49,988 nucleotides of DNA from Candidatus Omnitrophota bacterium (GTDB lineage Bacteria > Omnitrophota > Gorgyraeia > Gorgyraeales > Gorgyraeaceae), in assembly GCA_026387235.1 (NCBI GenBank), contig JAPLMD010000066.1:1-49988 (forward strand). Reading direction: 5' to 3'. Each line of letters begins with the position of its first letter. The stretch's first letter is position 1. The position numbers and the translations under genes are program-made. A model generated the notes under the pieces. The model did no database searches. It was not told where the DNA came from and saw only the letters and a list, made by a program, of their open reading frames with translations. Positions 6,388 to 45,980 of this stretch are shown here, in pieces.

Positions 6388-6427
6388 CCCCGCCCTTTCT
6401 AAAATTTAAAAAAGGGCGGGGTTTTTT
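6388..6427 (+). terminator. Rho-independent terminator
   Basis: An 11-bp GC-rich stem (CCCCGCCCTTT at 6388-6398, AAAGGGCGGGG at 6411-6421) is followed directly by six T. It lies 28 bases after the stop of the exported-protein gene. The stem is the same as that of the terminator at 16523. Confidence 0.9.
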
Positions 6428-6432
6428 AATGA

Positions 6433-16080: not shown

Positions 16081-16110
16081 TTGACTAGGGATGCTTAAAG
16101 GTGTTATAAT
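16081..16110 (+). promoter_or_regulatory. Sigma70-type promoter with extended -10
   Basis: TTGACT (16081-16086) and TATAAT (16105-16110) are 18 bases apart, and TGT precedes the -10 as an extended element. The start should fall near 16117, so the hairpins at 16129-16182 lie in the 5' untranslated region of the lipoprotein gene. Confidence 0.75.
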
Positions 16111-16128
16111 TACCAAAAATAGCCCCTC

Positions 16129-16187
16129 GTCCGCCAAAGTTCTGTGGCGGACTCGGGATCAAATTTTGTTTCACAAAATTTGGGAGG
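16129..16187 (+). repeat. Double-hairpin element ending in a Shine-Dalgarno
   Basis: Hairpin 1 is GTCCGCCA (16129-16136) with TGGCGGAC (16145-16152). Hairpin 2 is CAAATTTTG (16160-16168) with CAAAATTTG (16174-16182). GGAGG (16183-16187) follows the second stem without a gap, six bases before the ATG at 16194. The same arrangement recurs at 29252-29277 and 45313-45340 upstream of unrelated genes. Confidence 0.85.
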
Positions 16188-16193
16188 TGTAGA

Positions 16194-16499
16194 ATGAAAA
16201 AATATACGATAATAGTATTATTGCTTTTGTTGGTCATGGTTGCAGCAGGCTGCACAGGAACACAGAAAGGCGCTGGAATTGGCACATTGATAGGAGCTGG
16301 GGCAGGCGCTATCATAGGCCATCAGTCAGGTCATGCAGCTGAAGGCGCATTGATAGGCGGCGCTGCAGGAGCAGCAGGCGGAGCATTGGCTGGAGATGCT
16401 ATGGATAACAAGTTTTGCCCGGTTTGCGGAAAACAATACGGGTCAGATGTTCAGTATTGTCCGGCTGACGGAACAGAATTGAAAGTTATACAAAAATAA
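16194..16499 (+). CDS. Small lipoprotein with glycine zipper and zinc ribbon
   Basis: The 101-residue product has a lipoprotein signal peptide (MKKYTIIVLLLLLVMVAAGC), with the lipobox cysteine at residue 20. Residues 27-68 are Gly/Ala repeats (GAGAGAIIG, GGAAGAAGGALAG) of the glycine-zipper type, which usually insert in or span a membrane. The C-terminus has CPVCGKQYGSDVQYCPADG (residues 76-94), a CxxC...C zinc-ribbon-like segment that is rare outside the cytoplasm. The gene is alone, with its own promoter (16081) and terminator (16523). Function is unknown. A role in envelope stability or metal/redox sensing is conjecture. Confidence 0.75.
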   Translation: MKKYTIIVLLLLLVMVAAGCTGTQKGAGIGTLIGAGAGAIIGHQSGHAAEGALIGGAAGAAGGALAGDAMDNKFCPVCGKQYGSDVQYCPADGTELKVIQK

Positions 16500-16522: not shown

Positions 16523-16562
16523 CCCCGCCCTTTTTAAAATCTTAAAAAAGGGCGGGGTTTTT
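16523..16562 (+). terminator. Rho-independent terminator
   Basis: CCCCGCCCTTTTT (16523-16535) pairs with AAAAAGGGCGGGG (16545-16557), followed by TTTTT. It ends the lipoprotein transcript. The GC part of the stem matches the terminator at 6388. Confidence 0.9.
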
Positions 16563-16567
16563 ATTTC

Positions 16568-29181: not shown

Positions 29182-29198
29182 GCAAAATTTGGCCCTTC

Positions 29199-29277
29199 GC
29201 CGGCTAAAATGCTCGCTACTCGCTCGCATTTTTTTGACGCTGGCTCAGGATCAAATTTGTTTCACAAATTTGGGAGG
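29199..29277 (+). repeat. Double-hairpin element upstream of aroQ, ending in a Shine-Dalgarno
   Basis: Hairpin 1 has outer arms GCCGGC (29199-29204) and GCTGGC (29239-29244, one G-T pair) and inner arms AAATGC (29207-29212) and GCATTT (29226-29231). Hairpin 2 is CAAATTTG (29252-29259) with CAAATTTG (29265-29272). GGAGG (29273-29277) follows directly. Hairpin 1 is homologous to the element at 39025-39066; hairpin 2 plus Shine-Dalgarno matches 16160-16187. Confidence 0.85.
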
Positions 29278-29282
29278 ATATG

Positions 29283-38728: not shown

Positions 38729-38802
38729 GCGGGTGTAGTTCAATGGTAGAACACGAGCTTCCCAAGCTCGCAGCGTGGGTTCGATTCCCATCACCCGCTC
38801 CA
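38729..38802 (+). tRNA. tRNA-Gly (anticodon CCC)
   Basis: A 74-nt cloverleaf can be drawn. The acceptor GCGGGTG pairs with CACCCGC, the D arm is GTTC-AATGGTA-GAAC, and the anticodon arm is CGAGC-TTCCCAA-GCTCG with CCC at the anticodon. The T arm is GTGGG-TTCGATT-CCCAT (one G-T pair), the discriminator is T, and the CCA is encoded. It reads GGG codons. Its 3' part is copied twice downstream (38897-38916 and 39096-39112). Confidence 0.96.
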
Positions 38803-38827
38803 GAGTATTAAAAGGGAATCGAAGGGA

Positions 38828-38868
38828 GTCCGCTAGATGCGACAGATAGGAGCATCTGTTTAGCGGAC
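38828..38868. repeat. Conserved-loop hairpin downstream of tRNA-Gly
   Basis: GTCCGCTA (38828-38835) pairs with TAGCGGAC (38861-38868), and inside it AGATGC (38835-38840) with GCATCT (38852-38857) around the loop GACAGATAGGA. The loop and GATGC/GCATC stem recur at 6489-6509, 38642-38661 and, more loosely, 38945-38969. Confidence 0.75.
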
Positions 38869-38896
38869 GAGTGGCCGACCCGCCGTAGGCGGGCGC

Positions 38897-38916
38897 CGAT
38901 TCCCATCACCCGCTCC
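38897..38916 (+). repeat. Second copy of the tRNA-Gly 3' end
   Basis: The 20 bases CGATTCCCATCACCCGCTCC are identical to positions 38782-38801 of the tRNA. A complementary GGGAATCG occurs at about 38814-38821, so the DNA between the tRNA and this copy is bounded by inverted arms. No 5' tRNA part is present, so this is not a second tRNA gene. Confidence 0.9.
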
Positions 38917-39024
38917 GAATTTTGCGAAGCAAAGTTCGTCCTGAGAATACGACCGAATAGAGAGTATTCGAAGGGCACAAAAGTAGATATTTGATAGAAT
39001 AGCTGATTGATGAGGAGATACTTC

Positions 39025-39096
39025 GGTAGCTAAAATGCTCGCTTTGCTCGCATTTTTGACGCTACCTCAGTACCAAATTTCCTTTGGAAATTTGGT
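39025..39096. repeat. Double-hairpin element (copy of the aroQ upstream element)
   Basis: Outer arms are GGTAGC (39025-39030) and GCTACC (39061-39066). Inner arms are AAAATGC (39032-39038) and GCATTTT (39050-39056). A second hairpin is ACCAAATTTCC (39072-39082) with GGAAATTTGGT (39086-39096). Order and spacing match 29199-29272, with base changes on both sides of the outer stem. It ends in the third tRNA-end copy. Confidence 0.8.
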
Positions 39097-39112
39097 TCCC
39101 ATCACCCGCTCC
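39096..39112 (+). repeat. Third copy of the tRNA-Gly 3' end
   Basis: The 17 bases TTCCCATCACCCGCTCC are identical to the tRNA 3' end. Copies two and three also share the following GAATTTTGCGAAG and much of the next 20 bases, so a longer unit of about 45 bases has been duplicated. The tail itself is a hairpin (GAATTTT with AAAATTC at 39113-39133). Confidence 0.9.
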
Positions 39113-39197
39113 GAATTTTGCGAAGTAAAATTCGTCCCGAGCAACCATGGTCTTTTGTGCATAGTTGCGAGGGACATAATTAATATATAAAGATTAT

Positions 39198-45275: not shown

Positions 45276-45285
45276 GCCCTTGCCT

Positions 45286-45340
45286 GCCACAGAAACAATG
45301 GCTGCTCGGGATTAAATTTTGTTTCACAAAATTTGGGAGA
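45286..45340 (+). repeat. Double-hairpin element ending in a Shine-Dalgarno
   Basis: GCCACAGAAACAATGGC (45286-45302) forms the first hairpin. TAAATTTTG (45313-45321) pairs with CAAAATTTG (45327-45335) in the second, and GGGAGA runs directly into the ATG at 45345. This is the third copy of the hairpin-plus-Shine-Dalgarno arrangement (see 16129 and 29199). Confidence 0.85.
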
Positions 45341-45344
45341 TTCT

Positions 45345-45980
45345 ATGAGATATATTAAGAGTTGCGCAGTTATTTTTATTCTTTCGCTGTTCTCTTTAAC
45401 AGTTTATTCGGAAGAGGAGGCTAAGGAAAAATTTCCAAAGGTAGGCTATGTAAAAAATGAAGAAGCAATAGTCAGAGCGGGAGATAATGTAAATTTTGAA
45501 AACCTATGCTCGTTATCAAAATCTGACTCTGTGAAGATCATAGATAGGCGCTATAGCTGGTTTAAGATTTTATTGCCCAAAAAGGCGTTTTTGTATGTTA
45601 ATAAAGATTACGTCGATCTGACATCTGACGAAAAAGGCGTGGGCATAATAAATGCCTCCAACGTAAACTTAAGGGCAGGCGCAGGCACAAGATATTCCAT
45701 AATCGGACAGATATCAAAACCTGAAAAAGTTTCTATAATATCGGAAGATAGCGGATGGTATAAAATAGAACCGCCTTACGGCGCAACAGGCTGGATATAT
45801 TCTAACCAAATAATGCTGGCAGAAGAAAACGAGATAAAGATTCCAGAGCAAAAATCTGAGCAAAAAAAAGTAGAGGCAAAACCGAAAGAGACAACAGGTT
45901 CTACCGTAAGGCTTAACGCAAATTATCCCGCGCCTAAAGGCAATCTGTCCATAATTACTCCGGCAAAAAATAGCAGATGA
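45345..45980 (+). CDS. Exported protein with two SH3-like domains
   Basis: The 211-residue protein has a signal peptide (MRYIKSCAVIFILSLFSLTV, cleavage near YSEE). Two bacterial SH3 domains follow. The first is at about residues 30-90 (GYVKNEEAIVRAGDNVNFE, DRRYSWFKILLP). The second, more typical, is at about 95-155 (IINASNVNLRAGAGTRYSII, DSGWYKIEPPYGATGWI). A Lys/Pro-rich tail ends the protein. SH3b domains bind cell-wall peptides, so a periplasmic peptidoglycan-related role is likely. The ATG at 45345 follows GGGAGA; the upstream TTG is part of the hairpin. It overlaps the protease gene by four bases. Confidence 0.85.
   Translation: MRYIKSCAVIFILSLFSLTVYSEEEAKEKFPKVGYVKNEEAIVRAGDNVNFENLCSLSKSDSVKIIDRRYSWFKILLPKKAFLYVNKDYVDLTSDEKGVGIINASNVNLRAGAGTRYSIIGQISKPEKVSIISEDSGWYKIEPPYGATGWIYSNQIMLAEENEIKIPEQKSEQKKVEAKPKETTGSTVRLNANYPAPKGNLSIITPAKNSR

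Follow-up and report, generated by a model that had tools for sequence, protein, structure and literature searches.

Why should a hairpin joined directly to a Shine-Dalgarno (SD) sequence stand upstream of three unrelated genes? The question is raised by a 49,988-nt stretch of Omnitrophota DNA (hereafter, the window), which is contig 6 of a 1.50-Mb genome assembled in 69 contigs. A sequence-only reading of the window had described this arrangement upstream of a lipoprotein gene, aroQ, and an SH3-domain gene, and had proposed that a repeat ending in a ribosome-binding site was spread to translation starts, where melting of the hairpin could control ribosome access. The hairpin and the SD are indeed present upstream of all three genes, exact to the nucleotide, but the unit extends further, since each copy begins with another hairpin that had been overlooked. 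From 5' to 3', every copy consists of H1, H2 (the hairpin first described), and the SD, with a gap of 0 at both joints. Upstream of the lipoprotein gene, H1 (GCCCCTCGTCCGCC..GGCGGACTCGGGAT, 16122..16159, delineated by sequence and covariation) contains a UC/UC 2x2 mismatch, and is followed by H2 (CAAATTTTG-TTTCA-CAAAATTTG, 16160..16182), the SD GGAGG (16183..16187), and the ATG at 16194. The aroQ copy has a long variant of H1 (29191..29251), H2 with 8-nt arms (CAAATTTG-TTTCA-CAAATTTG, 29252..29272), the SD GGAGG (29273..29277), and the ATG at 29280. In the SH3-domain gene copy, H1 (45276..45312) abuts the stop codon of the preceding gene, and H2 (TAAATTTTG-TTTCA-CAAAATTTG, 45313..45335) is followed by the SD GGAGA (45336..45340) and the ATG at 45345. 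All three copies are on the + strand. The lipoprotein copy starts 12 nt downstream of a predicted sigma-70-like promoter (TTGACT-18-TATAAT, 16081..16110, + strand), and would therefore be part of the 5' UTR.

The double hairpin H1-H2 is about 60-90 nt in size. H1 has the form CCYUCG-variable-CUCRGGA (CCYTCG..CTCRGGA in DNA), in which outer and inner stems, separated by a UC/UC 2x2 mismatch, enclose an interior of ~14 to 44 nt, whereas H2 is a perfect A/T-rich hairpin of 8-10 bp with a short loop. In the window, there were 4 hairpin matches (2 places, both strands each) versus 0.15 expected from window shuffles. A window tally of TC/TC hairpins against those with other mismatches gave no information, as it demanded a 4-bp outer stem and that of H1 is often 3 bp. 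Among 25 aligned copies, 96.2% of the paired cells were in fact paired and 9 pairs had changes on both sides; the covariation score was reached by none of 500 shuffles, and sliding of the partner abolished pairing. The loop-closing pair of H2 alternates between U-A and C-G. Such covariation is compatible with a selected RNA and equally with a DNA palindrome whose symmetry is maintained by copying, and is no proof of RNA function. Rfam matches above the gathering threshold in the window were tRNAs alone, and five unit loci gave one tRNA and one sub-threshold match.

In the 1.5-Mb genome, 26 copies of the loop core TTTGTTTCACAAA were counted versus 0 for the reversed control, and every one directly precedes a GGAGG-type SD and an ATG on the gene's own strand. 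Thus, the view of a dispersed repeat, enriched in sense right before the starts of unrelated genes, is supported. With a looser pattern, the H1-H2 junction is found at 40 places in the whole genome, with H2 loops of the types TTTCA, CTTCG, TTTTA, CTTTG, and others, and ~44 protein genes carry the unit when degenerate loops are allowed. The carriers, named by their N-terminal sequences, include genes for ribosomal proteins (rplT, rpsG, rpsS, rpsP, and rpmA), tuf (EF-Tu), dnaK, groES, gap (GAPDH), aroQ, and lipoproteins. The H1 core by itself has 100 genome copies (control, 0), and H1 is therefore present in additional contexts; some copies of H2 lack H1 (L011 and L015). These censuses combine pattern and covariance searches of draft assemblies, many of them metagenome-derived, with a model trained on the double-hairpin family. 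Tandem units, mostly a degenerate upstream copy and an SD-flush copy connected by a recurring linker (T)AGCGAAAGACAAAG, are seen at six loci (L197, L200, L205, L231, L195, and L021). The groES leader (L029) contains a CIRCE-like inverted repeat TAGCACTC-N9-GAGTGCTGA in addition to the double hairpin, and a related double hairpin upstream runs into a -35-like TTGACA.

The position of the exact copies is what would be expected if the repeat carried its own ribosome-binding site to many starts and the ribosome were gated by the melting of H2. The orthologous sites of 8-12 congeneric genomes, where presence of the unit is polymorphic at all three genes, indicate otherwise. For the lipoprotein gene, the unit is found between an A-rich stretch and GGAGG or GGAGA in G000, G004, G008, and G011, whereas G006 (TATAATTATTAAAAATAGGAGGTGTAAGATG), G007 (TATAATTATTGAAAACAAGGAGGTGTGGGATG), and G010 are unit-free and have the same SD. 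Within the genus, an exact empty site ..AAAAATA^GGAGGTGT.. (the caret marks the junction) corresponds to the filled site ..AAAAATAG-(H1-H2)-GGAGGTGT.., and the same junction reads ..TATAATTATTAAAAATA^GGAGGTGTAAGATG in G006 versus ..TATAATTATAAAAAATAG(..)GGAGGTGTGGGATG in G008. The comparison of G006 with G008 and G000 revealed no target-site duplication and a junction ambiguity of 0-1 nt. Likewise, the SH3-domain gene is filled in G000 and G008 and empty in G001, a sister of G008, with the SD kept, and aroQ is filled in G000 and empty in G004, where the leader reads stop-AAAAAGGAG-ATG and the SD is also kept. Because filled and empty alleles share the promoter, the left flank, and the SD, the SD is native and the unit, a double hairpin of roughly 65 nt, is the insert; the SD belongs to the gene and not to H1-H2. 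Hence the proposed repeat with its own ribosome-binding site was rejected for the H1-H2 unit, and we regard it as quite unlikely overall, although a separate related element, described below, does have GGAG or GAGG within it in 11 of 16 start-flush copies. Since the site is empty in G006 but filled in more distant species, gain or loss has occurred more than once, and the empty sites could instead be precise losses. Other palindromes occupy the gap between gene and SD in sister species, including aroQ in G001, G003, G006, G007, and G008, which points to the compact intergenic space as a general landing site.

The unit also lies flush to the ends of tRNA genes, where no ribosome binds, which is a further argument against a spreading ribosome-binding site. 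In the source genome, it abuts the 5' end of a tRNA-Ser gene (L092, GGAGAAG..) and, inverted, at least nine tRNA genes at their 3' ends. In relatives, it is flush before tRNA-Ser (L130, GGAGGAGTG), tRNA-Gly, tRNA-Ala, and other tRNA genes, with copies at 5' ends at L130, L140, L144, L220, L221, L237, L240, L242, and L246; copies were classified by script and then by eye, and L130, L140, L242, and L206 are tRNA-linked despite the script's label 'start', which L202 likewise received. The abutted tRNA 5' ends are G-rich, and the 3' ends abutted by the inverted unit are CCA. Viewed on the opposite strand, the insertion point lies 3' of a C-rich sequence (..CCTCC^ or ..CC^A). Across 157 copies, the first five bases 3' of H2 are G (92%), G (70%), A (67%), G (83%), and G (72%), giving the consensus GGAGG. 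Moreover, GGAGG is present in 20/26 unit-bearing leaders versus 1/45 of the other window genes (P = 2e-11), whose starts come from ORF calls and are in some cases approximate. This suggests that GGAGG is the insertion target, although strong SDs may just mark the first genes of operons. In the window itself, the region 38729-39175 contains a tRNA-Gly gene and, after it, repeated 3' fragments of the tRNA that are each joined to hairpin elements. On the - strand, H1 (38939-38974) with H2 CGAACTTTGCTTCGCAAAATTCG (38917..38974 together) abuts a repeated tRNA-Gly 3' fragment (GGAGCGGGTGATGGGAATC, this strand), and H1 (39135-39173) with H2 CGAATTTTACTTCGCAAAATTCG (39112..39173 together) lies on another copy of the fragment. 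On the + strand, a variant H1 TACTTCGGTAGC..GCTACCTCAGTA with the hairpin CCAAATTTCCTTTGGAAATTTGG (39019..39095) faces the tRNA-Gly 3' fragment without an SD.

Flush junctions could also arise if the unit inserted at random and the spacer was then deleted as far as a functional boundary, with flushness as the end point of genome streamlining. The genomes are compact, and related hairpins are found flush to SDs, ATGs, stop codons, tRNA ends, and a -35 box (L028), as this scenario would have it. We nevertheless find it very improbable, because the lipoprotein pair keeps both flanks (AAAAATA and GGAGGTGT) to the nucleotide and because the junction has a base consensus in the 157 copies.

In predicted folds, the SD lies outside both hairpins, and its pairing is inconsistent among copies. 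Its mean unpaired probability is 0.43 with the unit versus 0.58 without it, with large scatter. Folding thus gives no support to the suggestion that melting of H2 gates ribosome access, and a general SD switch by the unit is not supported by these models. An RNA thermometer of the ROSE or fourU type was considered and is out, since the SD is not base-paired inside a hairpin. The minimum-energy fold of the aroQ copy pairs CCUUC of H1 with GGAGG, and the SD pairs alternatively with the 5' arm of H1 at a probability > 0.4 in 10/39 copies; individual leaders may therefore be affected.

Another possibility is that the unit is a selected cis-regulatory RNA of the 5' UTR, such as a thermometer, a protein-binding leader, or an mRNA stabiliser, serving a regulon of highly expressed genes. 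The covarying stems are compatible with it, as are the alternative SD pairing in 10/39 copies and the ribosomal protein, tuf, dnaK, groES, and gap genes among the carriers. With a covariance model (R1), the unit was found in 54/119 relatives, at 1 to at least 42 copies per genome, including 11/11 same-genus and 7/7 same-family genomes searched. The exact 27-nt pattern gave 42 stretches in 84,980 species genomes, exclusively in Omnitrophota, and viral contigs contained no exact copy. Some genes carry the unit in several species (ribH, dnaK, tuf, gap, yebC, trpD, and atpE), and for 16 of 57 unit-bearing genes sampled in relatives the counterpart in G000 carries it too versus 1.8 expected, a count that includes some paralogues (MoxR-like and pilin-like). 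Thus, either old copies have been kept or the same sites have been hit again, and such persistence at the same genes is also compatible with selected leaders. However, close relatives differ in presence of the unit, copies also adjoin tRNA genes, at the 5' ends and, in antisense, at the 3' ends, H1 occurs 100 times with other contexts included, and the loci tested lack an Rfam match. On balance, a regulatory RNA of this kind seems unlikely. A search of the literature on Omnitrophota palindromes or hairpins and on SD-linked palindromes returned nothing describing the unit.

Taken as a whole, it is probable that H1-H2 represents a miniature mobile palindrome of a REP/MITE-like type, Omnitrophota-specific in our scan, that has inserted flush 5' of G-rich signals. 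This reading is based on the architecture, the covariation, the flush junctions, the empty sites, and the patchy presence in close relatives, from which we infer mobility. Insertion would take place without target-site duplication immediately 5' of the G-rich signal, which in most cases is a strong native SD (GGAGG) but can also be a G-rich tRNA 5' end or, for the inverted unit, a tRNA CCA end. Because the unit stops exactly at the SD, it would leave the translation start intact and become a structured 5' leader of the mRNA. It may be spread by single-strand transposition of the IS200/IS605 or RAYT kind with the enzyme acting in trans, and its positions would presumably reflect target choice together with selection against broken genes.

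Several features are shared with known systems. Elements of the IS200/IS605 family produce no target duplication and are excised precisely. Their ends and derived MITEs resemble the unit in having mismatched hairpins, a short adjoining target, no duplication, and exact empty sites, and on the opposite strand the unit reads CCTCC^H2'-H1', in keeping with elements that carry subterminal hairpins at either end and insert 3' to a short target (PMC6006769). They differ in that no autonomous parent with the same ends as the unit was found beside Y1_Tnp genes, the transposase family searched. REPs and REPINs with their RAYT (TnpA-REP) are likewise many short dispersed palindromes, mostly outside genes, with turnover at the species level. 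They also share with the unit an imperfect stem with a conserved mismatch, in the unit the UC/UC of the H1 cores with their covarying stems, and E. coli TnpA-REP requires a mismatch bulge in the REP stem (PMC8266576). Unlike REPs, however, the unit is made of two adjoining hairpins, is flush 5' of the SD, and has neither a CGTC tag nor a GTAG/GTGG foot: H1 is preceded by an A-rich ...AG or AAG, and the opposite-strand foot of H2 is CCTCC or the tRNA CC^A. A REP driven by RAYT was rejected, as the unit is unlinked to the 30 Y1_Tnp genes of the genus (3 in its own genome and 27 others, in incomplete assemblies), none of which has an adjacent unit; two unit-model hits at these loci (E 0.16 and 0.38) are at chance level. 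CGTC-tagged REPs, which have a CGTC, TGTC, or CCTC tag, a single 8-9 bp stem, and no linked transposase (Di Nocera et al. 2013, PMC3733652), also form a REP-like family with the transposase unlinked, but their tag and single stem are absent from the unit. Mitochondrial double-hairpin or repetitive hairpin elements are dispersed, presumed mobile, and intergenic, upstream of protein and tRNA genes (PMC2800124). The unit is likened to these double hairpins by description, whereas their host is mitochondrial and they have no relationship to an SD. RAYT-like Y1 transposase genes are present in the genus (L123-L125, L252, L255-L257, L261, L262, L264, L266, and L273), and several have long perfect palindromes of their own on the flanks. 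In sister species, palindromes resembling these occupy the space in front of tpiA and the lipoprotein gene.

A related element has the form TTAATTCGCAC-linker-hairpin-GTGCTCATTAA, and lies flush to SDs, start codons (TTAATTCGCAC...GTGCTCATTA^ATG), or stop codons. It obeys the UC/UC rule, with changes on both sides in 16/25 pairs (the 3' side being fixed by the search pattern), and was found with its own model (R2) in 27/39 relatives, with up to 47 copies per genome and a wide distribution in the family. Of 33 long copies sampled, 16 terminate at a start codon, and the remaining 17 mostly do so at a native SD. The SD-like linker end (GGAG or GAGG) is present in the 11 start-flush copies mentioned above versus 4/17 other copies (P = 0.015), and the start-flush copies carrying it have a hairpin of 9-16 bp, usually 14-16 bp, between the SD and the AUG. 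This separate element does have an internal SD at some starts, where ribosome bypass or a folded-spacer start is possible. The arrangement TTAATTCGCAC-linker with SD-hairpin-GTGCTCATTA-ATG is seen at L094, L107, L109, L120, L318-L323, L325, L326, L328-L330, L332, and L334, and the genes include tpiA, leuD, hypD, hypE, argB, rplF, and rplC. Orthologues of tpiA, located with a triosephosphate isomerase N-terminus taken partly from general knowledge (69% identical to the genome's own protein) and used for location only, have element-free leaders, e.g. TAAGGGGAGATAATG.

More tentatively, a single-strand transposition system might target the translation-initiation signal itself, recognizing the SD complement CCTCC and the comparable C-rich ends of tRNAs; in this way, a selfish double hairpin would colonise safe positions before hundreds of genes throughout the phylum. 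The linker element, landing beside the start codon, would displace the native SD and then acquire an internal one, with its hairpin between SD and AUG. If the mobile-element reading is true, an SD- and tRNA-end-targeted class would be added to the small mobile palindromes, and a clear enzyme hunt would be set in an almost uncultured phylum. The copies would also provide natural experiments on 5' leaders, in which dozens of genes have the same double hairpin at a constant distance from the SD and sister species have unit-free orthologues.

Short copies of the related element often end at stop codons. Shorter relatives TAAGTGAGGAC..GTCCGAACTTA are flush at stop codons with the TAA within the palindrome (L013, L068, L081, L105, and L115; short R2 hits include L365, L400, and L401), and mirrored stop-side and start-side short copies can share one intergenic gap. 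Two long palindromes in the window (6388-6428 and 16523-16563; CCCCGCCCTTT..AAAGGGCGGGG) are 83% alike and terminator-like, with T runs after them.
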